Source: a virus. From it: 26,274 bases of DNA. Made by a program: the position numbers and the translations under genes. Positions 3,199 through 25,201 of the stretch are shown in pieces; positions within the stretch are counted from its first letter, which is position 1; each line of letters opens with the position of its first letter. The notes beneath the pieces were generated by a model. That model was not told the DNA's origin, did not search any database, and saw nothing but the letters and a program-made list of their open reading frames with translations. The DNA lies in the IMG/VR virus record IMGVR_UViG_3300006927_003284, positions 1 through 26,274 of that record. One strand, written 5' to 3'.

Positions 3199-5544
3199 AT
3201 GCCCACACTTTTAAAAGAAGGCAGTGCCAACACACACCTTACTCACCTCGAAGAGTTAGTTCTCACGCAAGGTCCAGCCGGCTATAAAATGGCCCGGGCA
3301 TTTCTGTTAGAACTTCTTGAAACCCTAAAGGGGAATTCTAAATCGCATGTGCAAACATCTGTTAAATGGGATGGTGCACCGGCGATGTTTGTTGGTATCA
3401 ACCCCGAGAATGGTAAGTTTTTTGTAGGAACTAAATCAATCTTTAATAAGGTTCCTAAAATTAACTACACTGAAGAGGATATTGTCAGAAACCACGGGCA
3501 TGCGCCCGGGCTTGTTGATAAATTATCGAAAGCATTAAAATATCTCCCTTCCCTTGGGATCAAAAATATTCTGCAGGGTGATTTCATGTTCGATGATGAA
3601 ATGCTCGATGTTGTTCAAATAGATGGAGAACCACACTACCGCTTTAAGCCAAACACGATAGTTTATGCGGTACCGGTTGATTCAGACTTAGGTAGAGAGA
3701 TTGGGCAATCGAAATTTGGTATTGTGTTTCACACTACATATGATAGTCTAGATAGCGGCGCTAGCTTTGGAGCAGATGTAAGCGCGCTGAACCGACCGCC
3801 GGGGATTTGGTTCGATGATGCTTTCTTTACAGATGACACCGGTACAGTAACTCTTACTGCTGGTGAAGAGAAGAGAATTCTTTCTTTAGTTAAAGAGGCT
3901 GACGCGGTTAATGAAAGTATAGACTATAATAATTTGCCTTCTGCGCTTCTGAATATCTATATTAACAGCGAAATTAAAGGCGGACAGTTTTTGGAGGATC
4001 CAGAACGTTCTTTTGATGGCTTTAAGAACTGGTATTTCGAGCGTTCTGAAAAGAAAATCAGTAAGCTAAAAAGCGAGAAAGGCCGCGGCAAAGCCGAAAC
4101 AAAAGCTCTGCAAGATATTCAACTGCTCGATAGCAAAAAAGAAGATATTCTTAATCTCTTTCAGGTATCTCGTCTATTGTTTGAAGCCAAAAACATTTTT
4201 ATTGAGAAATACAACAATGCTGTGTATAATACAAAGCACTTTGTAGATGATGGCTCTGGAGATCTGGTTGCGACGAATCCAGAGGGATATGTAGCAGTAG
4301 ATCATGCGGGTAATGGAGTGAAATTTGTAGATCGTCTGGAATTTAGTCGCGCTAACTTTATGGTAGATAAAACTGCCAAATTTACTGGTGAATCCGTTGA
4401 TCGCCGAAACTTTACTGTTCAAATCTCAAAAAATAAACAAATAACGAAAACTATAGCCGAGTGGTTGACAGAAATTAAGGCCGCAGGGCACAAACACCAG
4501 AAACTCCCACAAATGGTTTATAAGGACGTCTTGGCAGGTACCCCTATCGTAGACATTGTTGTTCAAGAGAACGCCGAGAGAACCATCTACAACGCAGTTA
4601 TGGACTATGCCAACAGTCTAAAGGAACAGTTCGAAGAAGAGCCTCCAGAAGACGAATGGTATAGTGATGAATATGAGACGCTAGGAGATCGCAAGTTTGC
4701 AGATCGTCCGGGTCAGACCATCGCTCTTGTCCCAGGTGCATTTAAGCCACCACACAGAGGGCATGCCGATATGGTACGTCGTTATGCTACCGGTGACGGT
4801 GTGCCAAAGGCGGACAGAACAATTATTTTGATTTCCAACCCTAAAGGCGCGCTGAGGAAGCTGCCGCATGACGATTCAGAAGTTAGTGCAGAACATTCCC
4901 GACGAATTTGGGAAACAGTCTTCTCTGATGTTACAAACCTGCCGGGTGTTGAAATACAAGTTGCAGACTCAGAGATGAGATCGCCAGTAAGCATTGCTTA
5001 TGAATATATTAGTGAAACATCTCCGCTAGATATCAAGGCGGGAGACGATATTATTTTGGGCGCTAGCAGAAAAGATCGCGACTTCATGCGCTGGAAAGGC
5101 GCCTCTGAATATAAAAAGAAGAAGAGAGGGGTTAACGTCTTAGCTGGTGAGGAATACGCTGTAGTGCCTTCTGAGCGCTCTGATAACAAACCTTTTAGCG
5201 CCAGCGACTCGCGGCAGTTGGTCAGCAATTTAGTAACCAACCCAGAAGATGTGGAATCATTACGACAGCTATCTGAGTATATTCCACAAGATAAGATCGA
5301 TGAGTTATTCAATATCCTTGGACAACCATCTCCAGTTTCTACAATAGCACAAGATCCTGTGAATGAAACATCACTTGGGGGTGGCGGACCCGGTGGGGCG
5401 CCGGGGAATGTGACCGGTTACTCAGGCCCTTTGCAATCTGGGTTGGGTAAACCCAAGAAAAAACCCAGAAAGAAAAAGAATGAAAATTTAGTTATCGTGA
5501 ACGAAGTTATGAAACTAATTATGGAAAGAGGTATACAAAGATGA
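3199..5544 (+). CDS. Ligase-fold nucleotidyltransferase fused to NMNAT/cytidylyltransferase-like domain
   Basis: A 781-aa two-domain protein. The N-terminal part matches the pattern of DUF6267-type proteins of T4-like marine phages: SVKWDGAPA (K56, D58, G59) is the KxDG motif I of ATP-dependent ligases and capping enzymes, followed by NILQGDFMF and the RFKPNTIVYAVP strand. The middle is helical. From about residue 508, IALVPGAFKPPHRGH carries the HxGH signature (H519, H522) of the nucleotidylyltransferase superfamily, and FSASDSR at about 665 occupies the place of its ISSTxxR motif. The C-terminus has a Gly-rich linker and a Lys-rich patch. Two AMP-transfer-type folds in one chain suggest work on RNA/DNA ends or NAD-type cofactors; the actual substrate is unknown. 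GAGGGAAAA precedes the ATG. Confidence 0.8.
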   Translation: MPTLLKEGSANTHLTHLEELVLTQGPAGYKMARAFLLELLETLKGNSKSHVQTSVKWDGAPAMFVGINPENGKFFVGTKSIFNKVPKINYTEEDIVRNHGHAPGLVDKLSKALKYLPSLGIKNILQGDFMFDDEMLDVVQIDGEPHYRFKPNTIVYAVPVDSDLGREIGQSKFGIVFHTTYDSLDSGASFGADVSALNRPPGIWFDDAFFTDDTGTVTLTAGEEKRILSLVKEADAVNESIDYNNLPSALLNIYINSEIKGGQFLEDPERSFDGFKNWYFERSEKKISKLKSEKGRGKAETKALQDIQLLDSKKEDILNLFQVSRLLFEAKNIFIEKYNNAVYNTKHFVDDGSGDLVATNPEGYVAVDHAGNGVKFVDRLEFSRANFMVDKTAKFTGESVDRRNFTVQISKNKQITKTIAEWLTEIKAAGHKHQKLPQMVYKDVLAGTPIVDIVVQENAERTIYNAVMDYANSLKEQFEEEPPEDEWYSDEYETLGDRKFADRPGQTIALVPGAFKPPHRGHADMVRRYATGDGVPKADRTIILISNPKGALRKLPHDDSEVSAEHSRRIWETVFSDVTNLPGVEIQVADSEMRSPVSIAYEYISETSPLDIKAGDDIILGASRKDRDFMRWKGASEYKKKKRGVNVLAGEEYAVVPSERSDNKPFSASDSRQLVSNLVTNPEDVESLRQLSEYIPQDKIDELFNILGQPSPVSTIAQDPVNETSLGGGGPGGAPGNVTGYSGPLQSGLGKPKKKPRKKKNENLVIVNEVMKLIMERGIQR

Positions 5545-6365
5545 TCCCCAAGCAAGAGCAAAAACTCAGAGAAAATATTAGACAGTTGATTGAAGTTGTT
5601 AAGCAGAGAAGAGAATCAGCTGCAGCTAAGATCTTAGAAGAAGAAGCTAGATTACGTGGCATAGTAAGGGGTCTTTTAAATATAGAGCTTTCTAACCTGT
5701 CTGAAGGTGTTACACCCGATAATGATCCCACACCTAATAAATCTACCGGTATCAACGTGCTGGAGGATCTCCTCAAAAAGATTATTCCCGTTCTGCAGAC
5801 TGACTTCAAACTTCTGACAACTGATGGCTCCCAAAGACAATCGTTTAGAGCCCACATTATTAATGCGGTCATTGGTGCTCTTACGCCCGCAGAAGTAAAT
5901 AACGAGGCTGGTGATGATATTGAAGCACTTGCCGAGATTGTTGACGTCGATCTCGGAGGACCCGCAGATGCAGACAAGTTTATCGATATCCGTACAGACG
6001 CAGAGAAGTCTGCGGATGAAGAAGAGCCCGAAGAGTCTGATCCTAGAGATGAATTTGGAATGGATGGCGCAGATGAGACCGGTCGAAACGTTGCTTTCAA
6101 CGCGTTCAAAAAGATTCAAACCTCAATTATTGATTCTTATGAACTGTTGTCTAACAATGAAGACCAAGAGTTATTCTACGATTATCTTATAGCCAATCTA
6201 AAATTGTATTTTGATAAGTTCGAAGATGAGCTGTCCCCAGAAGTTGAAGAGCCCACAAACCAAGCTTACCAAGACGCTGTGGCTGATGAGGGTGGTGAAT
6301 TAGAAGCGCCCACTGAAGAGGGCGGTGAAGAGTCCGCAGAAGAGGAAATTGATCTTGAGTTTTAG
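5541..6365 (+). CDS. Acidic helical phage protein
   Basis: A 274-aa protein starting inside the end of the previous gene (ATGA overlap). Residues 1-55 are basic and helical (KQEQKLRENIRQLIEVV), about 70-125 helical, and about 130-185 and 235-274 very acidic (EEEPEESD, EEGGEESAEEEID). The strongly biased composition and helical arms resemble internal scaffold or core-type phage proteins, but there is no diagnostic motif and no structural neighbour in the window. A long reverse-strand frame here is a composition artefact. Probably one operon with the nucleotidyltransferase fusion. Confidence 0.65.
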   Translation: MIPKQEQKLRENIRQLIEVVKQRRESAAAKILEEEARLRGIVRGLLNIELSNLSEGVTPDNDPTPNKSTGINVLEDLLKKIIPVLQTDFKLLTTDGSQRQSFRAHIINAVIGALTPAEVNNEAGDDIEALAEIVDVDLGGPADADKFIDIRTDAEKSADEEEPEESDPRDEFGMDGADETGRNVAFNAFKKIQTSIIDSYELLSNNEDQELFYDYLIANLKLYFDKFEDELSPEVEEPTNQAYQDAVADEGGELEAPTEEGGEESAEEEIDLEF

Positions 6366-6372
6366 GTGAGAT

Positions 6373-6741
6373 GTGCGGAAAAAAGCAAAAAAGAATTTGA
6401 CAACTCAGAATAAGAGTGTTATTATAAAATTGAAAGCAAAAAACCTTATTAATGATAGTTTATTAGTTAGTATTAATAATTTAACATTAGAAGACTTAAT
6501 CTCAATTAAATTAGAACTCTCAGCTAACCATATTAATAATAGACCATATGGATTTAGCTTGTGGTCGAAGGCTTCATATATAATGAAGGACTCTTTAATA
6601 AGGTTTGCACTCTCAACAACTAACTCGAAGAAAAGCGCAGCCAGGTTCCTAGGCATTACAGATAGTGAATTATATCAAGCTATCAAAAGGTATGAAGTGG
6701 CTGAACTATTAAAGGATAATGATAATGTGGAAGCTTTATAA
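6373..6741 (+). CDS. Fis-like HTH protein
   Basis: A 122-aa protein with a GTG start at 6373 behind AGGTGAG. The C-terminal 45 residues (SLIRFALSTTNSKKSAARFLG followed by ITDSELYQAIKRY) follow the Fis-type helix-turn-helix pattern: a helix, then A-A-R-x-L-G, then the recognition helix. The N-terminal 45 residues are Lys/Asn/Leu-rich with no known fold. It is a likely small DNA-binding regulator of phage or host transcription; no target can be named. Composition is more AT-rich than the preceding genes. Confidence 0.6.
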   Translation: MRKKAKKNLTTQNKSVIIKLKAKNLINDSLLVSINNLTLEDLISIKLELSANHINNRPYGFSLWSKASYIMKDSLIRFALSTTNSKKSAARFLGITDSELYQAIKRYEVAELLKDNDNVEAL

Positions 6742-6946
6742 ATACAACGGGCGCTATATTATGGGAGATTTAATCAGCTCTCATAAAACTGAATCTGCTG
6801 CCATGAAAAAAGCCAAGAAAGAACTCACATTTAAACATACCGAAAAAGAAAAGAAATCAACCGGACTCTATATCTGGCTAGATGATCAAAATCATGCACC
6901 AGTTGGTGTTATATTTCAAAAGAAGAAAGATAAAAAGGGGGTGTAA
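6719..6946 (+). CDS. Small basic protein whose stop codon lies inside the tmRNA gene
   Basis: A 75-aa Lys-rich protein (start ATG 6719; an alternative ATG at 6725 gives MWKLYKYNGRY). It overlaps the Fis-like gene by 23 bases. Residues about 4-35 (LYKYNGRYIMGDLISSHKTE) look like a small beta-strand module, followed by a charged helix. Function unknown. Its final codons (Gly-Val-stop) form the first ten bases of the tmRNA, so RNase P cleavage at the mature tmRNA 5' end would remove the stop codon from a read-through mRNA. Confidence 0.55.
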   Translation: MIMWKLYKYNGRYIMGDLISSHKTESAAMKKAKKELTFKHTEKEKKSTGLYIWLDDQNHAPVGVIFQKKKDKKGV

Positions 6947-7280
6947 GGGTTTCGACAGGGTAAAAAAGAAGAATAGTGCAAGTAGTCAAACGTACCAGTA
7001 GACTTTAAATGCAGATACAAAACAATAATTGCTAATAATAATAACAATTTCGAATCTGTCCGCCTAGCGGCTTAATCGGGAGGTTGCTTAGAGCCTTCTT
7101 TTCAATCTAAGCAAACAACAGACAAGTTGTAAAAATCAAAACCATCTAATGCAACAGGACGGTAAGCAATAGATTATAACCGTATAGCTTTTCAGTTTGT
7201 GACTAAAACTGAATAAACTTGTGAATGACTTGAATTGTGATTTATCTTGGACGCCAGTTCGACTCTGGCCACCTCCACCA
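6937..7280 (+). ncRNA. ssrA: tmRNA (transfer-messenger RNA)
   Basis: A complete one-piece tmRNA of 344 nt. The 5' end GGGGGTG pairs over seven positions with CACCTCC before the discriminator A and the encoded CCA (7278-7280). The conserved GGGTTTCGACAGGG follows the 5' end, and the T arm GCCAG-TTCGACT-CTGGC precedes the acceptor 3' strand. The internal reading frame (7031-7075) ends in Leu-Ala-Ala-stop. Downstream hairpins fit the pseudoknot ring: GCTTAGA/TCTAAGC (about 7085-7111), ACGGT/ACCGT (about 7160-7185) and TTCAGTTT/AAACTGAA (about 7190-7213). tmRNA with SmpB frees stalled ribosomes and tags the unfinished peptide for ClpXP. No smpB is seen here, so host SmpB would be needed. tmRNA genes in phages are known but uncommon. 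Confidence 0.93.
7031..7075 (+). other. tmRNA tag reading frame ANNNNNFESVRLAA-stop
   Basis: Starting at a GCT resume codon, the frame reads A-N-N-N-N-N-F-E-S-V-R-L-A-A then TAA. The Ala start and LAA end match ssrA tags recognised by ClpXP and ClpAP; the five-Asn run is unusual. The stop lies in a CCGC/GCGG hairpin, as in helix 5 of known tmRNAs. The frame is open upstream of the GCT, so the exact resume codon is inferred from the typical Ala start. Confidence 0.75.
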
Positions 7281-7329
7281 CTTACATAACAACAAAGCAG
7301 ATTTATAACTCTGCAAAAACGAGAAAATA

Positions 7330-9228
7330 ATGACAAAAACACTTATAATCGCAGCACTGTTAACTTTGACAGGCTGTTTTAACTCTGACAATACTGATAC
7401 TGTCCTCCCTGACGACCCTATTGAAACACAACCTATAGGAAGAATTGGCGGATTTGTTGAAGACCTTTCGGGACAACCTCTATCGAATGTTTTGGTGTCC
7501 ACCGAAACTGAAGTAGCATATACCGCAGACGATGGCTCATATACGCTTGAAAACGTTTCACCAGATGATAATATCGTTATCAAATTCACCAAGTCAGGCT
7601 ACGCTTCAAACTATGAGGTTGTTGAGCTGATTGGCTGGGAAACAGCAACTTCAAATACAGCACTGATGGGTATCGGTGGCGTAGCAACCTTTAATAGTAC
7701 TGAAACTTCACAGATTACTCTTGATGACGTTACTGTAGACTTTCAGGCAAACAGCTTTATCGATGGCGTTTCCGGAAATCCTTATACTGGTAATGTGATG
7801 GTAGAGATTACTCATGTCGATCCCACTACCGATGAACTTGATGCTGCGCCACGAGATCTTTCTGCGATTGGCTCTGATGGCTCCTCACAGCTTGTATCTT
7901 ATGGTATGGTTGATATAACTCTTTATGGTATTGATGGAGAAGTCCTAACAGTTAATCCAGACATGCCGGCAAACATTAAAATCCCAATTACTAATGGTAG
8001 TTTAAATGAAGATTACCAGCTTTCCGTAGGCGACACCCAATCAACGTGGTCATTCAGTCCTGAGCGAGGTATCTGGGTTGAAGAATCTGTAGGAACCATC
8101 ACTGGTGATGAAGACGGACTTTTCTTTACCTTTGAAGCGCCTCATTTTTCATGGTGGAACTGCGATCAAGGATTTGTACCTTCATGTGCATCAGGGCGCG
8201 TCATTGATTTTGTCGGTTTCCCAGTTAGAAGCGCTGAGGTTACCTGCGCAGGCGGACAAACAACGTCTACAGTCACCACTGATGAGGACGGCTATTACGT
8301 TTGTTCTGTGATGGTTGGTGATTATGTTAGCTTTACTGCCAGCACTTTTGTAGGCGGCCGCGACTGGCACAAGACGAAGGGAGCAATCTTTATGGACAGC
8401 GAGGGCTCCTCTGCTGCAGATTGTGAACCTATCCCAGATATCCAAATTGATGTTTGTCGTATTGCCGGCACCGTTAATGTGGAGAATTACGAGGCTAGCC
8501 TTAATGAAGACAGTTCAGAGACAGTAGCAGCTGATGGCTTGTCCGCAGTCTTTTGGGAACCACCCGGAGACATCTCATATTGTAATAATCCGCTTGATTC
8601 ATTGCAAGTTGGCGAATGTTGGTCAGGTACTAATGATGAAATAATCTCTAACTATCCCGAAAGCTCATGGCCTGGAATTCCGGCCTCTGCTCGCTCTGCA
8701 GGACTTTGGTTTGAAGTTTCTAATGCGCACGGATCTTATCGTATGGAAAGAACTCTTCAGGGAGTACTCCCCTTCTATGCATGGCAAACTCATAGCGATG
8801 AAAATGGAGATATTGTTACGGATAGACCCGAGTTTAACCAAGGGGACCTTCTTGCTGTCTCTGCAGCCGGTGATTCCGGGGCTTATTTTGGTCCCTGGGC
8901 TGTCGCTGACATCGCAGAGATACCTAGCCAAGTATTCTTCTCTAGCAACAGTCTGACGGCAACTGGTGGCAATCTATTAGTAGATTATACCAATGCTAGC
9001 GGAGACGATGTTTTCTTTGCCGCTGCAGCAGGTGATGAACAGGTACTTTGTAGATTTGAAGAAGCCGGCGCCTTTAGTGTACCGGCTCATGCGTTGTCAA
9101 GCCTGCCCGCAGGCTTCGGAGGCGCCTCGGTCTTCAATTTGTCGCTGGAGTTAGCTCCCGGACCAGATGGGCTGCCTATCTATACGCAAATATACTCTGG
9201 ACAATCTGTGCCGCTCTCGATTGAATAA
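7330..9228 (+). CDS. Large surface lipoprotein with carboxypeptidase-regulatory-like repeats
   Basis: A 632-aa protein. Residues 1-16 are a lipoprotein signal peptide (MTKTLIIAALLTLTGC), with Cys16 as the lipidation site. A carboxypeptidase-regulatory-like beta domain follows at about 35-100 (GGFVEDLSGQPLSNVLVST...DDGSYTLENV). A second domain (about 115-280) has FQANSFIDG...SGNPYTGNVMVEIT...LVSYGMVDITLYG and ends in FEAPHFSWWNCD, a pattern known from secreted proteins of Gram-negative bacteria. A further regulatory-like repeat begins at about 287 (CASGRVIDFVGFPVRSAEV...DEDGYYVCSV). The rest is beta-rich and Cys-containing. It should be exported by Sec and anchored to the outer membrane. Roles such as superinfection exclusion or surface change are possible but not shown. 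It begins 49 bases after the tmRNA. Confidence 0.8.
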   Translation: MTKTLIIAALLTLTGCFNSDNTDTVLPDDPIETQPIGRIGGFVEDLSGQPLSNVLVSTETEVAYTADDGSYTLENVSPDDNIVIKFTKSGYASNYEVVELIGWETATSNTALMGIGGVATFNSTETSQITLDDVTVDFQANSFIDGVSGNPYTGNVMVEITHVDPTTDELDAAPRDLSAIGSDGSSQLVSYGMVDITLYGIDGEVLTVNPDMPANIKIPITNGSLNEDYQLSVGDTQSTWSFSPERGIWVEESVGTITGDEDGLFFTFEAPHFSWWNCDQGFVPSCASGRVIDFVGFPVRSAEVTCAGGQTTSTVTTDEDGYYVCSVMVGDYVSFTASTFVGGRDWHKTKGAIFMDSEGSSAADCEPIPDIQIDVCRIAGTVNVENYEASLNEDSSETVAADGLSAVFWEPPGDISYCNNPLDSLQVGECWSGTNDEIISNYPESSWPGIPASARSAGLWFEVSNAHGSYRMERTLQGVLPFYAWQTHSDENGDIVTDRPEFNQGDLLAVSAAGDSGAYFGPWAVADIAEIPSQVFFSSNSLTATGGNLLVDYTNASGDDVFFAAAAGDEQVLCRFEEAGAFSVPAHALSSLPAGFGGASVFNLSLELAPGPDGLPIYTQIYSGQSVPLSIE

Positions 9229-9285
9229 ATATTAAAAAACATTGCGCTTCCTTTATGAAACAGTATAACTATTATAGGGAGCAAA

Positions 9286-9954
9286 ATGAAACGACTAATA
9301 ATATCAGATATTCATATCGGAAGTAAATATTATAAAGCTGATCAAGTAAAAGCTCTATTGCAATCGACCGAGTACGATCAATTGATCCTGAACGGAGACA
9401 TTATTGATCTTATAAAAGTGCCCATCTTCACAGATCGGGCACTTTCTCTTTTTAAGGCGATCGATCCCTCGAAAGAGATAATATATGTGGTAGGTAACCA
9501 TGACATATCATTTATGGGATTCATAGGGAGTTCTATTGGTCCCGTCAAATTTGTAAATTCATATGAGTTTGAAGAAAAGGGTAGAACGTTTAGGGTACAA
9601 CATGGTGATATTTACGACAAAGGCTGGATTAAAGATAGTTTTTGGATAAAATTATTGTCGCTTGTGCAAGGGTCAATAGAGAACTATTTTAATATTGACA
9701 TAACATCTTGGTATATCTCTCGTAAAATAAAGAAGCGCAAATTAAAAAGAATTTGGGATCTGTTGGATGCGAATAGTGACGTTGATGTGATAATACTGGG
9801 ACATACCCATATCCCAGAGGCGGTTATATGGGTTAATGAAAGAGAAGAAATAAAAACCTATATTAATTGCGGAGATTGGATATCACACACTTCATATGTG
9901 ATGATCGACAATGGTATCGCCCGGTTAAAAGAATGGAATCCACCAAAAGACTAG
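9286..9954 (+). CDS. LpxH-like calcineurin-type metallophosphoesterase
   Basis: A 222-aa protein with the full calcineurin-like metal set: DIHIG (D8, H10), NGDIIDL, VGNHDIS, QHGDIYD and LGHTHIP. Size and the order of GNHD, HGD and GHTH resemble the UDP-2,3-diacylglucosamine hydrolase (LpxH) group, and the middle helical segment (KIKKRKLKRIWDLL) fits its basic membrane-facing insert. It probably hydrolyses a phosphoester or pyrophosphate; whether it acts on lipid A precursors is unproven. GGGAG precedes the ATG. A TTGCGC (9242) and TATAAC (9264) pair with a 16-base spacer could be a promoter. It lies among envelope lipoproteins. Confidence 0.85.
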   Translation: MKRLIISDIHIGSKYYKADQVKALLQSTEYDQLILNGDIIDLIKVPIFTDRALSLFKAIDPSKEIIYVVGNHDISFMGFIGSSIGPVKFVNSYEFEEKGRTFRVQHGDIYDKGWIKDSFWIKLLSLVQGSIENYFNIDITSWYISRKIKKRKLKRIWDLLDANSDVDVIILGHTHIPEAVIWVNEREEIKTYINCGDWISHTSYVMIDNGIARLKEWNPPKD

Positions 9955-16456: not shown

Positions 16457-17740
16457 ATGAAGAAAAAGAAAGTTTTGGTGCTCTCCGATCACCCGCTTTC
16501 GCCATCCGGGGTTGGAACCCAAACCCGGTATATGATCGAGGCGCTCCTTAAAACAGGGCGCTATCAATTTGTTTGCTTAGGCGGAGCAGTAAAACACAGA
16601 GAATACCAAATGCAGAAGGTTGATCCCTATGGGGAAGACTGGCGAATATTCCCTGTCGATGGATATGGAAACCCCGAAATCATACGCTCGATACTCCAGA
16701 AAGAAAGACCGGATGTATTGTGGTTTATGACAGATCCTCGTTTTTATACGTGGCTGTGGGAAATCGAGAACGAAGTGAGAATCAACGTCCCAATGGTTTA
16801 TTATCATGTATGGGATAACAACCCGGCACCGTTCTATAATGCAAACTACTACAAATCTAATGATAAGGTAGTTTGTATATCAAAGGTTACAAAGGGTATT
16901 CTAGATACAGTTGCTCCAGACGTAGACAGCGAGTATCTTCCACATGCGGTAGACTCGGAGTCTTTCTATAAGTTCAAAACAGATGAAGATCTTGCAAGAA
17001 CCGCTGTTATTCGTGAACGCGTCGTTGGAGCCTCAACAGAGTTCGCCAACCCGGAGAAGAAAATCTTTTTCTGGAATAATAGAAATGCACGTAGAAAACA
17101 GTCTGGAACACTTATTTGGTGGTTTAAAGAGTTCTTAGATGAAGTGGGTCATGACAAAGCTACTCTGCTTATGCATACTGATGCGCGAGATCCTCACGGA
17201 CAAGACTTGCCTCATATCTTGAACCACCTTAATATAACAGACGGACAGGTTTTGCTTTCAACTGATAAGGTTTCTCCACAAGACCTCGCAGCAATGTACA
17301 ACGCTGCGCATTTTACCATTAATATCTCAGATGCAGAAGGATTTGGACTAGGAACGTTAGAGTCTTTAGCATGCGGAACTCCTATTATTGTTAATATGAC
17401 AGGAGGCTTGCAAGAGCAGGTTACCGATGGAAAGAACTGGTTTGGCTACGGTTTAGAACCTTCCTCGAAGGCGATTATTGGTTCCCTACAAGTGCCATAT
17501 ATCTACGAGGATCGTATCACCCAGAAAGCTTTCACCAACACCCTCAAAAAGGCTCTGAACATCGCACCAAAGACTTACAAGAAGATGTCGATACAAGGTA
17601 GAGAACATGTTCGTGCAAACTATAACTTTGACGATTATGAGAAAAACTGGGTTAAGATTATGGATGATGTTGTTGAAACATACGGATCATGGGAAGAGAG
17701 AAAACAATATAAACGCTGGCATTTATTGGAGGTAGCGTAA
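16457..17740 (+). CDS. Glycosyltransferase, GT-B fold (GT4-like)
   Basis: A 427-aa protein. The N-terminus KKVLVLSDHPLSPSGVGTQTRYMIEAL has the Gly-rich acceptor loop of GT4 enzymes. The C-terminal donor domain carries ISDAEGFGLGTLESLACGTPIIV, the E-x7-E nucleotide-sugar motif, preceded by a KIFFWNNRNARRKQ basic loop. Full length for the family. It would transfer a sugar from an NDP donor in the cytoplasm. AGGA precedes the ATG, and its stop overlaps the next start (TAATG). Donor and acceptor unknown. A close structural relative follows, suggesting duplication or sequential additions to one glycan. Confidence 0.9.
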   Translation: MKKKKVLVLSDHPLSPSGVGTQTRYMIEALLKTGRYQFVCLGGAVKHREYQMQKVDPYGEDWRIFPVDGYGNPEIIRSILQKERPDVLWFMTDPRFYTWLWEIENEVRINVPMVYYHVWDNNPAPFYNANYYKSNDKVVCISKVTKGILDTVAPDVDSEYLPHAVDSESFYKFKTDEDLARTAVIRERVVGASTEFANPEKKIFFWNNRNARRKQSGTLIWWFKEFLDEVGHDKATLLMHTDARDPHGQDLPHILNHLNITDGQVLLSTDKVSPQDLAAMYNAAHFTINISDAEGFGLGTLESLACGTPIIVNMTGGLQEQVTDGKNWFGYGLEPSSKAIIGSLQVPYIYEDRITQKAFTNTLKKALNIAPKTYKKMSIQGREHVRANYNFDDYEKNWVKIMDDVVETYGSWEERKQYKRWHLLEVA

Positions 17741-19002
17741 TGAAAAAGAAAGTATTCTTTAGAGGACCCCTTCTAACAAGATCGGGATACGGAGAACAGG
17801 CTAGATTCGCAATGCGCGCACTAGCTTCCCGACCAGATCTTTTCGATATCTATATTCAGCCTTTAGAATGGGGGAAAACCTCGTGGACCAATGAGGATAC
17901 CCCTGAGAGGGCTTGGATTGATAGAACTATAGAAAAGACCCTGCAATACATCCAACAAAACGGACAGTTTGATATATCGTTCCAAGTTACAATTCCAAAT
18001 GAATGGGACAAGCCGGCGCCGATTAATATTGGATACACAGCCGGGATTGAGACTACGAAAACATCACATCAATGGATCCAAAAGGGCAATGAGATGACTG
18101 GTATTATTGTAGTTTCCAACCATGCGAAAAATACTTTTTTAGCTACGGACTACCAACTGTCCAATCAACAAACAAACCAAACAATGATTCTCAAGTTAGA
18201 AACTCCAATTGAGACAGTTAACTACCCAGCAAAGAAGTTCCAGGAACTTCCAGATGTTGATTTAGACTTAGAATACGAACACAATTTCCTAGTAGCAGCC
18301 CAATTGGGCCCTCGCAAAAACGTGCCAAACACTATTAAATGGTTTGTTGAAGAGTTTCGAGACGAAGAAATAGGGCTTGTTGTAAAGTGTTACGCTGCAA
18401 AGAACTGTCTGCTCGACCGCGAGATGACAATGCAAAATCTTAGACAGCTAGTCTCCCAATTGGGAGAAAAGAAGTGTAAAGTATATCTTCTGCACGGTGA
18501 CATGTCCGACGAAGAAATGCATTCCCTCCAAACACATCCTAAGATTTCCGCATTCTTATCCCTAGCTCATGGCGAGGGCTTTGGTTTACCGATTTTTGAA
18601 GCAGCCTATTCTGGTACCCCTGTCATTGCAACCGGTTGGTCTGGTCAGCTGGACTTTCTTGTTGACGAAGAGGGCAAATCAAACTTTTACAACGTAAATT
18701 TCGATCTCAACCAAGTACAGCCAGCAGTTGTTTGGGATGGTGTCTTAATCGCCGACTCAATGTGGGCTTATCCTCGCGAACAGTCTGCAAAGAAGTGTAT
18801 GCGCGACTGTTATAATGATATTATAAATCAAACAGAAGGAAGTGTTGCAACATCTGCCGACACCTTTGCTGAATCCGTGCAGGAGAGATTTTCGCAGGAA
18901 AAACAATATAAAGCCATGGTGGACGCCGTTCTTAAGTTCTCTGGGAACCCAGAAGAAGAACAATGGAGAGATGTGTTGGACCAAGTGGTAGAGTATGATT
19001 AG
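17740..19002 (+). CDS. Glycosyltransferase, GT-B fold (GT4-like)
   Basis: A 420-aa protein. KKVFFRGPLLTRSGYGEQARFAM is the N-terminal Gly-rich loop. LVAAQLGPRKNVPNTIKWF starts the donor domain, and LAHGEGFGLPIFEAAYSGTPVIA contains the E-x7-E motif. GGAGG lies seven bases upstream of the ATG, and the start overlaps the previous stop by one base. No membrane segment, so cytoplasmic. Acts in the same glycan pathway as its neighbours by position. It overlaps the next gene by eight bases. Confidence 0.9.
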   Translation: MKKKVFFRGPLLTRSGYGEQARFAMRALASRPDLFDIYIQPLEWGKTSWTNEDTPERAWIDRTIEKTLQYIQQNGQFDISFQVTIPNEWDKPAPINIGYTAGIETTKTSHQWIQKGNEMTGIIVVSNHAKNTFLATDYQLSNQQTNQTMILKLETPIETVNYPAKKFQELPDVDLDLEYEHNFLVAAQLGPRKNVPNTIKWFVEEFRDEEIGLVVKCYAAKNCLLDREMTMQNLRQLVSQLGEKKCKVYLLHGDMSDEEMHSLQTHPKISAFLSLAHGEGFGLPIFEAAYSGTPVIATGWSGQLDFLVDEEGKSNFYNVNFDLNQVQPAVVWDGVLIADSMWAYPREQSAKKCMRDCYNDIINQTEGSVATSADTFAESVQERFSQEKQYKAMVDAVLKFSGNPEEEQWRDVLDQVVEYD

Positions 19003-20662
19003 CAAAGAAGTAATCTTTATATCCGACTTCTTTATCAATGAGGTAATGGGTGGCGCTGAGTTTTGTAATGATGCTCTGATGAAACTTTTAAGTCCGGACG
19101 TAAAGATTGATAGTTTAAAGTCTGACCGTGCAACTGTTCAACTTGTTGAGAATAATCTTGATAAGTTCTTCATTGTCGCGAACTTCTTTCAACTTGCTGA
19201 GAATGTAAAAGTAGCTTTAGCAAAAACAACATATGTTATTTTAGAGCACGATCACAAATATGTCCGCTCAAATAATCCTTCCTTATACAAAGATTTTCTT
19301 GCGCCAGAAAGACAAATACAAAATAAGGCATTTTATAAGAATGCGTTAGCGGTACTGTGTCAGTCTAGGAAGCATGCCGGAGTCGTCCAACGCAACCTCC
19401 TAATAAACAATATTGTAAATTTAGGCGGCAACATATGGAATGAGGAACAACTCGCCACTTTAGAGAATAATATGGGCGCGAAGAAAATAATTAAGTATGG
19501 AGTTCTCCAGTCCAATAACCGCAACAAAGGCATGCCCGCAGCGATCGCCTATTGTCAGAGAAAAGGATTAGACTTTAAGCTAATTCAAGGCAAGCCATTT
19601 CCTGAGTTTATTAGAGATATCTCCCAAGTGGAAACATTAGTATTCTTTCCGCAATGGTTAGAGACATATAATCGTTTTTCTATTGAATCAAGGATCCTGG
19701 GCTGTAAACTTATAACAAACAGCCTGATAGGCGCCACCAGCGAAGACTACTTTAAGCTGAAGGGCAACGAACTTTTAGATTTTATAAGACAAAACAATCA
19801 GAATCTTCGTCAGCGCTGGATTAAACTAATCAACAATAGTGAAATAAAATACTTCCCGCCCTTAGACCTGCCAAAGATTACGGTATTCTGTCCCCTATAT
19901 GCCGGCGAACAATATATTGAAGGCTTTCTGAAGTCTATGCAAGAACAGACAATCTTTGATCAGTGCGAACTGATCATTATTGATGCCAACTCTCCCGAAA
20001 ACGAGAGTCAATACATCGAAGAGTTTATGAAAGAGCATGAAAATGTAATTTACAAGCGATTAGATCATAGGGCGTCAGTAATGGAAACTGAAAATATGGC
20101 AATCCACATGGCAACGGGTGAGTTCTTTGCTCAAGCATGCGTTGATGACAGACATCATAGAGAATATCTTGAGATTATGGCAAAACATCTCCACTATCAC
20201 GAGGATATAGATCTTGTTTATACAGACTGTCTACAGACTACAAAGCCAAATGAGACCGTAGAGACAAACTCTTCGTCTGGAGCCTATTACGAGCATTCGC
20301 GTAATGAGTTTTCTCCGGAGAACATGATTAAGTGCTTGCCAGGGCCAATGCCTATGTGGAAGCTGAGTGTACACGAAAAATGTGGATATTTTGATGAAGG
20401 CTTATCGTATGCTGGAGATTGGGACATTTTTCTAAGAATGGTAGCGTCAGGTTCTAAATTTAAGAAAATTGATATTCCGTTAGGGTTATATTACTTTAAT
20501 TCTGAGGGATTATCAACCTCAACAGAAAATCAAATCCCTAGGGGAAAAGAAGAGGCGGAAGTCTTCTTTAAGCATAAAAACGTATTCGGTGAAGCGAACT
20601 ACAATAAATATAAAAATTACTTCTCACAATTTATAAGGAATGAAAATGAGTCAACAACGTAA
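18995..20662 (+). CDS. Two-domain glycosyltransferase (unknown GT-B-like N-half, GT2 C-half)
   Basis: A 555-aa protein. Residues about 1-285 resemble a GT-B half: KEVIFISDFFINEVMGGAEF at the start and VETLVFFPQWLETYNRFSIESRILGCKLITN, with the Glu expected in donor binding. From about 292, KITVFCPLYAGEQYIEGFLKSM starts a GT-A/GT2 domain: CELIIIDANSPENE, MAIHMATGEFFAQACVDDRHH (DD as the DxD-type metal site) and SYAGDWDIFLRMVASG. Such fusions can add two different sugars in turn. The N-half lacks a clear E-x7-E, so it may be inactive or diverged. Starts inside the previous stop region. Confidence 0.85.
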   Translation: MISKEVIFISDFFINEVMGGAEFCNDALMKLLSPDVKIDSLKSDRATVQLVENNLDKFFIVANFFQLAENVKVALAKTTYVILEHDHKYVRSNNPSLYKDFLAPERQIQNKAFYKNALAVLCQSRKHAGVVQRNLLINNIVNLGGNIWNEEQLATLENNMGAKKIIKYGVLQSNNRNKGMPAAIAYCQRKGLDFKLIQGKPFPEFIRDISQVETLVFFPQWLETYNRFSIESRILGCKLITNSLIGATSEDYFKLKGNELLDFIRQNNQNLRQRWIKLINNSEIKYFPPLDLPKITVFCPLYAGEQYIEGFLKSMQEQTIFDQCELIIIDANSPENESQYIEEFMKEHENVIYKRLDHRASVMETENMAIHMATGEFFAQACVDDRHHREYLEIMAKHLHYHEDIDLVYTDCLQTTKPNETVETNSSSGAYYEHSRNEFSPENMIKCLPGPMPMWKLSVHEKCGYFDEGLSYAGDWDIFLRMVASGSKFKKIDIPLGLYYFNSEGLSTSTENQIPRGKEEAEVFFKHKNVFGEANYNKYKNYFSQFIRNENESTT

Positions 20663-21059
20663 ATACCTTCCTACACTCTCCGATTTGATCGATCGCCTGT
20701 CGATTGCACAACTCAAAGAAGTATTTATCCCCGAACACAAAGCTGAATATGCCCAGGAAATCTCAGATATCTGCCATGATATCCAGTTGATTCTCGATTC
20801 TAGTTCCGGCAAAATGAACGCGGAAACTGTAAGAGCGATAATTGTCCTCTCTCAGATGAACTTGCACATTTGGCACAATGAGTCTCAAGTTAGAGCCGGC
20901 TCAGGTTCTGGCAATTTATCGCTAACTCACGGACTCAACGGTCTTCGGAATGTGGCAAAAAACAGGATTCAAGAGATTAACGGCGGCAGAAAAGATTATA
21001 AGATTGATTGTTTAGCAGCCGACTTTAAAGATTGGGAAATCAGCTGGGATAATGACTGA
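20646..21059 (+). CDS. Uncharacterised helical protein of glycan clusters
   Basis: A 137-aa protein; the ATG at 20646 has AAGGA six bases upstream and is preferred to the ATG at 20640. LPTLSDLIDRLSIAQLKEVFIP, a mid helix with VRAIIVLSQMNLHIWHNESQVRAG, and KIDCLAADF form a conserved-looking pattern that I recall beside glycosyltransferases in phages and marine bacteria. No catalytic motif is evident. It might be a partner or chaperone for the transferases, or an enzyme of unknown type. Overlaps both neighbours by 8-17 bases. Confidence 0.7.
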   Translation: MSQQRKYLPTLSDLIDRLSIAQLKEVFIPEHKAEYAQEISDICHDIQLILDSSSGKMNAETVRAIIVLSQMNLHIWHNESQVRAGSGSGNLSLTHGLNGLRNVAKNRIQEINGGRKDYKIDCLAADFKDWEISWDND

Positions 21060-22143
21060 GGTTTATGACTTTGATGTTGTCATTATTGGAGCCGGACTTG
21101 TAGGATTAGCTGTAGCTAGAGAATTATCCTCGGTATATGATAATATCATATTAGTTGAAAAAGAGTCAAGTTTCGGACAGCACGTTTCGAGTCATAATAG
21201 CGAAGTTATCCACTCCGGCATATATTATCCCAAGGGCGCCCTTAAAACTAAACTATGTGTTGAGGGCAATAAACTGCTTTATAAATTTGCACAAAAATAT
21301 GATATACCGCATAAGAAATGTGGAAAATTGATTGTGGCTACCTGCCCAGAAGAAGAACCTATTCTTGATCAACTTTATGAGCAGGGGAAGAAAAACGCGG
21401 TAGTAGGTATGTCAATGATTGGCAAATCAGAGATCGCCAAAATAGAGCCAGCCGTTAAAGCAACAAAGGCACTCCACGTAGAATCCACAGGAATAATAGA
21501 CAGCCATTCAGTTATGCAGCAGCTTGAGGCGTCAGCCTTAAATGCGGGGGTGGTCACTCTGTATAATACTGAAATAACATCGATTGATAAAAAAAATAAC
21601 ATTTATAAGTTGACAACTGATACAAATAATGATATTATACAAACAAGAATAGTAATTAACGCTGCAGGGCTCTGGAGCGACACTATTGCGGCAATGGTGG
21701 GAATAAATGATTATAAGATCCATTGGTGTAAAGGCGAGTATTATAAAACCAATAAACACAGGAATATGAAAAAGCTGATTTATCCGGTACCGGATCCTCA
21801 AGGCAAGTATTTGGGAATTCATACGGTACTAGATTTAAATGGCGGACTTCTTTTCGGACCAAATGCATATTATGTAGACAATCTCTCTTATGATATGAAA
21901 GAGAATAACAAGCCCCAGTTTTATGAGGCGATTAATCGATATTTAGATATCGGTTGGTGCGAGATAGAACCAGCGTTAACTGGCATAAGACCAAAACTTC
22001 AAGCTCCCGGCGAGAAATTTAGAGATTTTGTAATAGAAAATAACCAAAAACATGAGAATTTTATCAACATAGTAGGAATAGAATCACCGGGCTTGACAGC
22101 CTGTCTTGCTATTGCTAAACATACAAGGGGAATTATTAGATGA
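21052..22143 (+). CDS. L-2-hydroxyglutarate oxidase-like FAD-dependent oxidoreductase
   Basis: A 363-aa protein. DVVIIGAGLVGLAVAREL (GxGxxG at about 11-16) is the FAD-binding Rossmann site. SSHNSEVIHSGIYYPKGALK and STGIIDSHSVMQQL match the LhgO/DAAO-type oxidoreductase pattern strongly, and IVINAAGLWSD is the second FAD contact. The C-terminus IGIESPGLTACLAIA is also typical. LhgO oxidises L-2-hydroxyglutarate to 2-oxoglutarate. In a phage glycan operon the substrate is more likely a hydroxy-acid or sugar intermediate, or the enzyme feeds 2-oxoacid to the nearby E1-like proteins; that is inference. GGGA precedes the ATG; ATGA overlap with the epimerase. Confidence 0.88.
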   Translation: MTEVYDFDVVIIGAGLVGLAVARELSSVYDNIILVEKESSFGQHVSSHNSEVIHSGIYYPKGALKTKLCVEGNKLLYKFAQKYDIPHKKCGKLIVATCPEEEPILDQLYEQGKKNAVVGMSMIGKSEIAKIEPAVKATKALHVESTGIIDSHSVMQQLEASALNAGVVTLYNTEITSIDKKNNIYKLTTDTNNDIIQTRIVINAAGLWSDTIAAMVGINDYKIHWCKGEYYKTNKHRNMKKLIYPVPDPQGKYLGIHTVLDLNGGLLFGPNAYYVDNLSYDMKENNKPQFYEAINRYLDIGWCEIEPALTGIRPKLQAPGEKFRDFVIENNQKHENFINIVGIESPGLTACLAIAKHTRGIIR

Positions 22144-23078
22144 AAAAAGAACACGTATTAGTCACAGGAGGCGCCGGCTATATAGGCTCTGAACTGATCG
22201 ATTACTTACTCCACGCAGGATATACTGTAACAGCGCTCGATAACTTAATGTATGATCCGACATCGTTGCTGCGCTATACCAACAATCCAGATTTTAGCTT
22301 CATCAAGGGGGACGTTAGAAACGTTCTATTGATGGAACGCCTTATGGCAGAAGCAGACATTATTATACCTTTGGCGGCATTGGTTGGCTTTCCTTTGTGC
22401 GATGAGGACCCCCGTGGTGCCCAAGAGATTAACCATGACGTTAATACTTGGATAGCAAAAAACAAAAAGCCAAATCAAAAGGTTATCTACCCCTGCACTA
22501 ACTCTGGCTACGGCGTTAGTGTCGATGGTTCTGTCTGTACAGAAGAATCACCCCTTAATCCTATTTCGCTCTACGGACGCACCAAAGTGGCGGCAGAGAA
22601 AGAATATCAGGATGTTGACAACTGCATAACGTTTAGATTGGCTACTGTTTTCGGCCCGGGCTCACGCATGCGCACTGACCTCCTTGTAAACAACTTTGTT
22701 CTTAAGACATTGCGCGAGAGAGTTTTGGTGTTGTATGAATGTGAGTTCATGCGCAACTATGTGCATCTTCATGATGTATGTCGCGGCTTTATGTTTGTGC
22801 TCCGTAACTGGGAAGATTGTAAAAATGAAACATATAATCTTGGAAATGACGAACTGAATATGAACAAGCTCCAGCTAGCCGAAAAGATTCAAGAGCATCT
22901 TCCTCTAGAGATAATCCGCGCAGAGATTAACAGCGATCCTGATACCCGCGACTACATTGTTAGTAGCGATAAGATTTATAATAAAGGCTACAAGTGCGCA
23001 TATGATCTCGATGATGGAATCAGACAACTCATAACTGCATATGCTATTATAGAAAGCCCTTGGTACGCAAACTATTAA
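22140..23078 (+). CDS. NDP-sugar epimerase/dehydratase (extended SDR)
   Basis: A 312-aa protein. VTGGAGYIGSELIDYLLHAGY carries the GxxGxxG NAD site. TALDNLMYDPTSLL and IKGDVRN fit the extended-SDR cofactor pattern. SLYGRTKVAAEKEY contains the catalytic YxxxK (Y145, K149), and the TNSGYG stretch supplies the Ser/Thr. FRLATVFGPGSRMRTDLLVNNF is a typical sugar-nucleotide loop. It would epimerise, reduce or dehydrate an NDP-hexose for the glycosyltransferases. Sugar unknown. It starts inside the FAD gene's stop (ATGA). Confidence 0.9.
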   Translation: MKKEHVLVTGGAGYIGSELIDYLLHAGYTVTALDNLMYDPTSLLRYTNNPDFSFIKGDVRNVLLMERLMAEADIIIPLAALVGFPLCDEDPRGAQEINHDVNTWIAKNKKPNQKVIYPCTNSGYGVSVDGSVCTEESPLNPISLYGRTKVAAEKEYQDVDNCITFRLATVFGPGSRMRTDLLVNNFVLKTLRERVLVLYECEFMRNYVHLHDVCRGFMFVLRNWEDCKNETYNLGNDELNMNKLQLAEKIQEHLPLEIIRAEINSDPDTRDYIVSSDKIYNKGYKCAYDLDDGIRQLITAYAIIESPWYANY

Positions 23079-23079
23079 T

Positions 23080-24588
23080 ATGAAACAGATAGATGTATTA
23101 TTCGTCCATCCCAATGGCGCCCAGATAATTTATCAAGAGCTGAGTAAAAACTATTCAGCGATTGAACCGCCTATATGGGCAGCACTGCTGGCAAAAAATG
23201 CCCTCACAAAAGGATTTACTACAAACATTCTTGATTGTGAAGCAGAAAGAATAGACGCATCAGAATCAGCAACCCGGGTAAAAGAGCAGAATCCTCGTTT
23301 GGTGGCGATAGTGGTATATGGTCAACAGCCTTCAGCATCAACTCAGAATATGATTGGCGCACGAAGGTTGATAGAACAACTGAACGCAATCGCTCCAGAA
23401 CTTAAGACGATCCTCATCGGATTACACCCCTCAGCCGTCGCTCGACACACGCTGGAAACCGAAGGCTCTGATTTTGTTTGCCAAGGTGAAGGTCCTTACA
23501 CTATTCAAAAGCTCTTAGAAATCGATATGGACGATCCCGACGCTCTAAGCACCGTCCCCGGGCTTTGGTACCGAGTTGATGGTAAGGCCCTTTGCACACG
23601 CCCTGCGCCGATTATACCGCAAGAGAAGCTCTCTACGGAGCTACCCGGGATGGCATGGGACTTGCTTCCGATGGATAAGTACCGCACATCTAACTGGCAT
23701 GCAATGACAAATGGAGATGACCGTCAGCCGTTCGCTTCTTTGTATACAAGCTTAGGTTGTCCGTTCCGCTGTAGTTTTTGTTGTATTAACGCGCCATTCG
23801 GCAACAATAACTTGGAAAATTGGGACTACGGACGTAATAAGTTTAGATATTGGGAACCAGAATTTATGATTGAAGAGTTTGAAACTCTCCATAAAATGGG
23901 AATCCGGAATATTAAACTAGCTGATGAAATGTTTGTCTTAAATCAAGACCATTTCATGAAGCTATGCAACTTGATTATTGAGAGAGGTTATGACTTTAAC
24001 TTTTGGGCGTACGCTCGTGTAGATACAGTTAAAGAAGAATATCTTGAAACATTAAAGAAAGCCGGCGTTAACTGGCTAGCCTTGGGAATCGAATCGGGAA
24101 ACACTGAAGTTCGAAAGGATGTAACAAAGGGTAAGTTCACAGATGTAAAGATTCAGGATTTAGTAAAGAAGATCCAAGACGCTGGCATCGACGTCATCGG
24201 TAACTATATCTTTGGGCTCCCCGAGGATACTATCGAGACCATGCAAGATACACTGGACATGGCAATGGAACTCAACTGTGAGTTTGCAAACTTCTATTCA
24301 ACCATGGCTTACCCCGGCTCGAAGTTATATCTCGATGCATTGAGAGAAGGCTGGGAGCTTCCAGAAACATATGTGGGATTCTCACAACATTCATACGAGA
24401 CGCACCCGCTGTCAACTAAACATATATCAGCAGCCGAAGTGTTAGGCTTCAGAGACGAAGCGTTTACAAAATACTACACCAGCGATAGATATTTGGATAT
24501 GATTGAGGAAAAGCGAGGAAAAGCCACGCGCCAGTCTATTGAAGATATGACAAAAATAAAACTTAAAAGAAAACTATTGGGAGATTGA
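23080..24588 (+). CDS. B12-binding-domain radical SAM enzyme
   Basis: A 502-aa protein. Residues about 1-165 form a cobalamin-binding-type Rossmann domain (KQIDVLFVHPNGA, RLVAIVVYGQQPSAS, ILIGLHPSAVARHTLE, DFVCQGEGPYTIQKLL). I see no classic DxHxxG, so the cobalamin may lack the lower His ligand, as in many such enzymes. TSLGCPFRCSFCC is the CxxxCxxC [4Fe-4S]/SAM site (C227, C231, C234). The rest follows the radical SAM barrel (WAYARVDTVKEE, LALGIESGNTEV, GNYIFGLPEDTIETM). Many relatives methylate or rearrange unreactive carbons. A modification of a sugar or lipid in the glycan pathway is a fair inference. Confidence 0.9.
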   Translation: MKQIDVLFVHPNGAQIIYQELSKNYSAIEPPIWAALLAKNALTKGFTTNILDCEAERIDASESATRVKEQNPRLVAIVVYGQQPSASTQNMIGARRLIEQLNAIAPELKTILIGLHPSAVARHTLETEGSDFVCQGEGPYTIQKLLEIDMDDPDALSTVPGLWYRVDGKALCTRPAPIIPQEKLSTELPGMAWDLLPMDKYRTSNWHAMTNGDDRQPFASLYTSLGCPFRCSFCCINAPFGNNNLENWDYGRNKFRYWEPEFMIEEFETLHKMGIRNIKLADEMFVLNQDHFMKLCNLIIERGYDFNFWAYARVDTVKEEYLETLKKAGVNWLALGIESGNTEVRKDVTKGKFTDVKIQDLVKKIQDAGIDVIGNYIFGLPEDTIETMQDTLDMAMELNCEFANFYSTMAYPGSKLYLDALREGWELPETYVGFSQHSYETHPLSTKHISAAEVLGFRDEAFTKYYTSDRYLDMIEEKRGKATRQSIEDMTKIKLKRKLLGD

Positions 24589-24589
24589 T

Positions 24590-25201
24590 ATGTTAACGAA
24601 AGAAGATTTGATTGATTTTGAGAACGACATTGCAGCCTGTTTTGATGACGCACAAATCCGCGCACCCGTTCACTTATATAATGGTAATGAAGAGCAAATG
24701 TTGGAGATATTTCGAAAGCATGATATTGGCGATGATGATTGGGTCTTCGGATCTTGGCGAAGCCATTATCAGTGTCTTCTCAAAGGTGTTCCTCCCGAAA
24801 AGCTCAAAGCAGCTATTCTTAAGGGGCGCTCTATTTCATTGTGCTTTGCTGAGCAAAAGGTTCTATGCTCGGGGATCGTAACTGGTGTTCTTCCGATTGC
24901 AGTAGGGGCAGCGCTAGACATTAAAAGGAGAAACCTCCCGGGAAAAGTATATTGTTTTATGGGAGATATGACATCCGAGACTGCGATCGCGCATGTAAGT
25001 ATAAAATATGCCAGAAATCACAAACTCCCTATTCACTTTATCGTTGAAGATAATGGCAAATCAGTTTGTACTGATACTAAATCCACGTGGGGAACTGAGA
25101 AGTTAACCTATGAAGATGTCAACGACGAGTACATAACATATTATAGCTACGACGCAAGTAAGTGGCCACACGCTGGAGCCGGCAAGAGAGTGCAGTTTTG
25201 A
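24590..25201 (+). CDS. 2-oxoacid dehydrogenase E1-alpha-like ThDP protein, short form
   Basis: A 203-aa protein behind GGGAG. FGSWRSHYQCLLKGVPPEKLKAAI matches the E1-alpha substrate loop (YRxH..L.KGVP). IVTGVLPIAVGAALDIKRR is the conserved helix, and FMGDMTSE...IHFIVEDNGKS is a ThDP/Mg site of the GDG-x26-NN type, here GDM (about 125) and DN (about 155). It is much shorter than a usual E1-alpha (over 300 aa), lacking parts of the N- and C-terminal regions. With the E1-beta-like gene after the sulfotransferase it could form a heterotetramer that decarboxylates a 2-oxoacid. No E2 gene is in view. Perhaps an acyl or aldehyde donor for a sugar. Confidence 0.82.
   Translation: MLTKEDLIDFENDIAACFDDAQIRAPVHLYNGNEEQMLEIFRKHDIGDDDWVFGSWRSHYQCLLKGVPPEKLKAAILKGRSISLCFAEQKVLCSGIVTGVLPIAVGAALDIKRRNLPGKVYCFMGDMTSETAIAHVSIKYARNHKLPIHFIVEDNGKSVCTDTKSTWGTEKLTYEDVNDEYITYYSYDASKWPHAGAGKRVQF

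Follow-up and report, generated by a model that had tools for sequence, protein, structure and literature searches.

Non-stop messages made by RNA processing are a known theme, and the layout described here is a variant of it. In arfA of E. coli and brfA of B. subtilis, a programmed RNA event strips the stop codon from a small gene and turns its message into a tmRNA substrate, as set out in passages of two papers (PMC8012679; PMC10107115). Passages of the latter describe how such non-stop messages enter trans-translation and how decay spreads upstream to zntR, which lies before arfA; processing of the tmRNA 5′ end by RNase P is described in part of a further paper (PMC3985003). In the viral locus analyzed here, a comparable loss of the stop codon is predicted from the overlap of a 75-aa gene with a tmRNA gene. 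For arfA and brfA, the stop is lost through RNase III cleavage or through a terminator within the ORF, whereas in the phage the RNase P maturation of the tmRNA itself would remove it. The arfA and brfA products are rescue factors, whereas the 75-aa protein matched no Pfam family at E 0.1 or better. In mitochondrial tRNA punctuation, tRNA excision sets the 3′ ends of mRNAs and can remove stop codons, which polyadenylation then completes; in the phage, by contrast, the removed RNA would be the rescue RNA itself. Among the top matches in open-licence PMC papers, none described a gene whose stop codon lies inside a tmRNA.

Two isolate phages with a tmRNA offer further comparisons. Methylophage Melnitz is a T4-like marine phage that, like the phage studied here, carries its own tmRNA in a regulated unit; its tmRNA is two-piece with a predicted glutamine riboswitch (parts of PMC9004378), whereas the tmRNA studied here is one-piece and had no riboswitch match. 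Section 8 of that paper offers only suggestions for the role of phage tmRNA (PMC9004378). In the Melnitz record (MZ577097), the tmRNA is annotated 3 nt after a small CDS, without overlap. Homology of this CDS before ssrA to the 75-aa gene was considered and rejected, because the two showed no similarity. The tmRNA of Streptomyces phage Jay2Jay also fits the one-piece model (96.5 bits), and the CDS upstream of it ends 215 nt before the tmRNA, again without overlap.

The window, by which we mean the whole stretch of DNA analyzed, corresponds to a 26,274-base virus record from IMG/VR. The Rfam RF00023 match to its tmRNA scored 115.4 bits (E 9e-45; gathering score 47). Acceptor pairing joins 6937-6943 (GGGGGUG) with 7270-7276 (CACCUCC), G3.U70 included, and is followed by the discriminator A7277 and CCA at 7278-7280. 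The tag frame ends in a degron-like sequence, with LAA before its stop, and the function of its resume codon is predicted. As for the four pseudoknots typical of tmRNA, the middle of the Rfam alignment contained many non-standard pairs and low posterior values. At the Rfam gathering score, the window contained no riboswitch, the matches being the tmRNA and one tRNA only; no riboswitch family was among the Rfam matches listed at E 1 or better for eight relatives.

The sequence-only reading had placed the stop codon of the 75-aa gene inside the mature tmRNA, with the 5′ end at 6937, and this was confirmed by ARAGORN, Rfam, and the acceptor pairing. The codons across the junction are GAT (6929-6931), AAA (6932-6934), AAG (6935-6937), GGG (6938-6940), GTG (6941-6943), and TAA (6944-6946). 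Its further argument, that RNase P cleavage at 6936/6937 would leave a non-stop message if the two genes are co-transcribed, is logically sound: the predicted message would end in AAA AA, that is, in one Lys codon and two bases, with no stop. The features are collected in Table 1.

Table 1. Positions of features in the window and of structured RNA copies in related loci.
Feature	Position	Strand	Basis
Promoter-like TTGACA-17-TATTAT, TG before second hexamer	6397..6425	+	11/12 consensus bases
Upstream gene, C-terminal helix-turn-helix (HTH; Fis-like)	6373..6741	+	ORF list; Pfam HTH_8
75-aa gene (73 aa from ATG 6725), conserved family	6719..6946	+	ORF list, relatives
AAG codon across predicted RNase P cut 6936/6937	6935..6937	+	Sequence; tmRNA 5′ end
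TAA stop of 75-aa gene, tmRNA bases 8-10	6944..6946	+	Sequence, ARAGORN, ORF list
One-piece tmRNA with G3.U70 and encoded CCA	6937..7280	+	ARAGORN and Rfam, same ends
Tag reading frame, ANNNNNFESVRLAA then stop	7031..7075	+	ARAGORN
Acceptor-stem 3′ strand	7270..7276	+	Read from sequence; 7/7 pairs in 57/57 tmRNAs
Structured RNA copies	L046:4146-4252, L053:3332-3440, L072:4032-4154, L178:2161-2267		Covariation
Structured RNA copies, more	L037:4126-4256, L048:9996-10124, L070:11209-11337, others		Covariation

The 75-aa ORF is a true gene and not a chance frame. A first scan of viral contigs yielded 23 loci with a relative, and the viral contig scans together with one genome-contig scan gave at least 140 records among 189 loci, representing at least 67 distinct variants; in two of the scans, the relatives were the best 80 of 182 and the best 80 of 112. 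The 140 records collapse to 67 distinct sequences, several records being the same contig. An alignment of 25 family members contained 18 invariant columns, and relatives mostly begin with MWK, so that ATG 6725 is the likelier start. All 57 ARAGORN tmRNAs downstream of 75-aa gene relatives possess a 7/7 acceptor stem, G3.U70, and CCA. The AlphaFold model of the protein is a confident small alpha/beta fold (mean pLDDT 87). We rejected assigning a function from this fold: Foldseek returned one viral relative at E 0.001 or better (62% identity), which carries no name, and no match in the PDB at the same threshold. PHROGs likewise contained no matching family, and the Pfam, PHROG, and PDB searches revealed no relationship to a known rescue factor. 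Two queries with the 75-aa gene found no match in 50,697 isolate phage records.

The gene upstream, with a Pfam HTH_8 match just under the cut-off (E 2.6e-4; 21.1 bits against 22), was present in 157 of the loci, duplicates and the window counted. The 75-aa gene starts inside it in the window, and an overlap of 1 to 23 nt between the 75-aa start and the gene before it recurs in many loci. Downstream, a gene with a lipoprotein-like start, as read by eye, begins at 7330, 49 nt after the tmRNA. In many relatives (L011, L014, L034, L048, L077, and others), a gene judged by eye to be thioredoxin-like lies between the HTH and 75-aa genes. Farther along the window, at 16457-25806, ORFs resemble by eye glycosyltransferases, an oxidoreductase, a nucleotide-sugar epimerase, a radical-SAM protein, and a sulfotransferase. 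Isolate phage records also provided no match for window positions 5500-9300, the HTH protein, the tmRNA DNA, or the structured RNA of relatives described below. A neighbouring DUF6267 protein matched 466 isolate records, mostly of cyanophages; among the matches listed, these were distant and covered about half of the protein length, and they fit a T4-like marine myovirus. One relative (L189) sits in a Neomarinimicrobiota assembly whose own tmRNA tag, ADYGYAAAA, is different; we claim no host from it, because a binning error is possible.

We interpret the locus as a compact tmRNA operon, with a probability of about 0.6, in which the overlap would arise and persist through genome compaction and the non-stop message would be a tolerated by-product. 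In these T4-like marine phages, the 75-aa gene and the tmRNA would follow one another in a single, densely arranged transcription unit, which would run from the promoter and the HTH gene, in some cases through a structured RNA and a thioredoxin-like gene, to the 75-aa gene and the tmRNA. Recognition by RNase P depends on the folded acceptor and T arms. The acceptor 3′ strand at 7270-7276 comes approximately 330 nt after the stop codon, so early ribosomes could finish normally; we infer that, before the 344-nt tmRNA is transcribed and folded, ribosomes would terminate at the stop and release full-length protein. Host RNase P would then cut at tmRNA base 1, a step that active tmRNA requires, and leave a leader without a stop codon, at whose 3′ end later ribosomes would stall and be relieved by trans-translation with host SmpB. 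The host would need to supply SmpB, because the ten phage records searched, some of which may be fragments, gave no SmpB match; one bacterial assembly did. The non-stop by-product would limit each transcript to an early burst of product. The earlier proposal that all tmRNA production from the shared transcript would entail tagging and destruction of the protein therefore goes too far, as early ribosomes could end normally.

We compared the position of the stop codon across relatives. Ten of the 67 variants had no ARAGORN tmRNA; eight of these were scored by hand from a visible tmRNA start (seven overlapping, one separate) and two (L134 and L160) were excluded, which left 65 scorable variants, with L247, L248, and L259 outside all counts. 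The stop codon lay inside the tmRNA in 53 of the 65, with all three frames used, and outside it, 3 to 675 nt before, in the other 12. In the 57 variants with ARAGORN-called tmRNAs, 46 stops were inside (base 6 in 29, base 8 in 5, base 11 in 1, base 25 in 4, base 38 in 5, and base 39 in 2) and 11 were not (-3 in 2, -7 in 1, -13 in 4, -63 or -64 in 3, and -675 in 1). By parsimony on the protein tree, in which many forks are weak, the arrangement switched between overlapping and separate at least eight times and the stop moved at least 18 times; the variants do not count as independent of each other. These counts and tree changes indicate that the overlap is common but dispensable and that its frame is not fixed. 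The check for conservation in related phages proposed in the sequence-only reading thus had a divided outcome: most variants retain the overlap, and 12 of 65 do not. Relatives with the two genes separated, which that reading had named as evidence against itself, do exist, both among these 12 and in L134 and L160, where the 75-aa gene lies tens of kilobases from the tmRNA on a linear contig, while the majority still overlap.

In other loci, the place next to the tmRNA is occupied differently. The 75-aa gene is absent beside the tmRNA in L046, L053, and L072; in none of these, nor in L200, does the tmRNA contain the end of an ORF of at least 35-40 aa. The HTH ORF itself runs to tmRNA base 25 in L191, which holds the tmRNA of the record containing L160. 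This HTH ORF is usually one or two genes upstream, and the 75-aa gene of that record is approximately 35 kb away on the linear contig. In L199 (the record of L125) and L201 (the assembly of L189), which have lost the overlap, a tiny Cys-rich ORF of 17-21 aa, for example MKCKCCECCACECEKCC as read by eye, follows the 75-aa gene and directly precedes the tmRNA. In L157/L194, a gene that appears methyltransferase-like by eye lies between the two and ends a few nucleotides before tmRNA base 1, without overlap.

For comparison with tRNAs, we surveyed 25 tRNAs in four related genomes, G001, G002, G005, and G008 (minus its last 4.9 kb). Only one, a tRNA-Thr entered at base 8, was overlapped by an ORF whose homologue occurs in another genome. 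Three more were entered by homologue-less ORFs of 42-80 aa, namely a tRNA-Arg at base 21 and two tRNAs of the G008 cluster at bases 59 and 37, where the ORFs partly read other tRNAs; two of the 25 share one base with a stop codon. The same ORF family enters tRNA-Thr at base 8 in L079, L086, and L088, with its stop at bases 8-10. As overlap is seen at tRNAs, though more rarely than at the tmRNA, gene-tRNA overlap evidently occurs without a rescue function, and the tRNA-Thr cases and the HTH ORF of L191 count in favor of compaction. Compaction alone may nevertheless not suffice, because overlap is commoner at the tmRNA (53/65) than at tRNAs. An ORF in L014 ends inside tRNA-Asn at base 36, and a similar-looking ORF in L011 stops 7 nt short of tRNA-Asn.

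The same comparisons bear on the regulatory alternative, a self-coupled switch in which the overlap would have been selected so that tmRNA maturation makes the message of the gene non-stop, the released tmRNA then tagging the product and triggering decay of the upstream operon, as for arfA-zntR in E. coli. Most variants have retained the overlap while the stop moved at least 18 times, which is consistent with such selection, as are the higher frequency of overlap at the tmRNA than at tRNAs and the likely co-transcription; there is also precedent, in passages of two papers, for a non-stop ORF that is repressed by trans-translation and drags down the gene upstream (PMC10107115; PMC8012679). Against selection for the overlap, however, 12 of the 65 variants place the stop outside the tmRNA, three of them directly abutting base 1, and the 75-aa gene can sit elsewhere (L134, L160) or be missing beside the tmRNA (L046, L053, L072). 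The HTH ORF can occupy the same place, so the loop would not depend on any one protein, and two isolate phages with a tmRNA have no overlap. On balance, we consider selection for a switch rather unlikely.

The codon at the junction provides a view of whether translation continues into the tmRNA. In the commonest class, comprising 36 variants, the stop is UGA at tmRNA bases 6-8, and the codon over the RNase P site is N(-1)-G1-G2. Base -1 was A in 19 and C in 17 of the 36, so that the codon is always Arg (AGG or CGG); G (Gly) or T (Trp) was found in none, despite at least nine changes at this position on the tree. The base before it, a third codon position, was A in 22, T in 12, and G in 2. By comparison, in 15 contexts of the same phage group where -1 falls in a spacer or beyond the final stop codon, several of which are close relatives, the base was T in 8 (L244, L246, L046, L053, L073, L200, L125, L126), C in 5 (L189 and the four -13 variants), and A in 2 (L058, L157). 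T at -1 is compatible with processing, since it is common in these non-codon contexts; outside the group, the base was A in L100, another kind of phage, and T in the bacterial L190. The constraint at the junction codon is of the protein type. RNase P preferences at -1 could nevertheless add to the A/C pattern. We conclude that the 75-aa protein is probably read into the tmRNA, and selection on the junction codon suggests that a full-length protein with its last residues encoded in the tmRNA is produced and important.

Translation into the tmRNA could also work in the opposite direction and control tmRNA maturation. Ribosomes ending in the tmRNA 5′ strand would block folding of the acceptor stem, so that heavy translation of the 75-aa gene would delay tmRNA release and a shortage of free ribosomes would allow it. 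With stops at bases 6 to 39, terminating ribosomes would indeed cover the acceptor strand and D-like region, and the acceptor stem is intact in 57 of 57 tmRNAs; stops just upstream of base 1, however, satisfy the geometry equally well, and direct evidence is absent, so we hold this control to be very unlikely.

With respect to transcription, the best promoter-like site of the window, at 6397-6425, lies within the annotated start of the HTH ORF and is the candidate start of a transcript carrying both the 75-aa gene and the tmRNA. Sites resembling sigma-70 promoters and scoring 10/12 or better were found in 44 of 60 distinct HTH-upstream regions (those less than 80% identical) versus 4.2 in shuffles that keep base composition only, and a wider spacing range gave sites of 10 or more in 47 of 62 distinct regions. 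Interiors of the 75-aa gene were not enriched, with such sites in 4 of 50 versus 4.8 in synonymous shuffles. The window gene contains a weak site at 6735-6762 (9/12). A scan of synonymous variation found five single codon columns low (z at least 2, the scores taking no account of relatedness) and no long run of codons with reduced variation. We also considered and rejected a T4-type late promoter, TATAAATA at 6737-6744, since the motif occurs 3 times in the window versus 2.07 expected, and we rejected an internal promoter in general on the lack of enrichment and of any block of synonymous constraint. As promoter-like sites cluster upstream at the HTH gene and not inside the 75-aa gene, one transcript through both genes is likely, and the shared transcript assumed in the earlier reading gains support from the strong upstream site and the absence of internal enrichment. 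That the tmRNA is expressed separately from its own promoter within the 75-aa gene, leaving the overlap without consequence, is the least credible alternative, given that the 9/12 site, which could start a tmRNA-only transcript, and TATAAATA are opposed by the above counts and that TATAAATA codes for Y-K-Y of the protein.

Relatives contain an additional element in the unit, a conserved stretch of approximately 100-130 nt that separates the HTH gene from the gene after it, first met where the 75-aa gene is missing. A model built from seven copies matched 27 sequences at E 1 or better among 84 sources, training copies included, and did not match the window. In 26 aligned copies (25 distinct), 15 of 21 pairs showed changes on both sides; the covariation score was 0.441, versus 0.158 for shuffles and no more than 0.080 for slid controls, the alignment having been fitted to the structure, which favors the score. 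Both-side changes occurred in 7/7 pairs of the closing stem, 2/4 pairs of a GTGG-type hairpin with the loop GAGCAARAGA, and 3/5 pairs between a hairpin loop and downstream sequence; the element would be a pseudoknot if the hairpin bearing this last loop, which was read by eye, holds. A motif search of the loci recovered 26 distinct copies, 25 of them directly after the HTH gene, and the next feature was the thioredoxin-like gene, the 75-aa gene, or the tmRNA itself. The position directly before the 75-aa gene or tmRNA fits a shared transcript, and the element is possibly a riboswitch or another leader element. Scans of eight relatives returned no Rfam family for it at E 1. Matches to tmRNA_permuted upstream of some tmRNAs were rejected as cross-matches, because one covers the tmRNA start of L070, where the element is elsewhere.

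For genome annotation, the locus is a warning to gene callers that the C terminus and stop codon of a conserved gene can sit within a stable RNA. It is also conceivable, if rather doubtful, that the birth of the tmRNA makes its own first substrate, with one non-stop operon message per mature tmRNA and hence a self-timed shut-off. If so, trans-translation would degrade the small protein, and coupled mRNA decay would silence the upstream operon genes, by way of RNase P alone, while the covarying leader RNA of relatives may set the amount of transcript that enters the circuit. Because maturation and message destruction would coincide, a role for the phage tmRNA would be directly testable by a reporter. 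Maturation of the tmRNA and destruction of the neighbouring message would then be a single chemical step, in many related phages.
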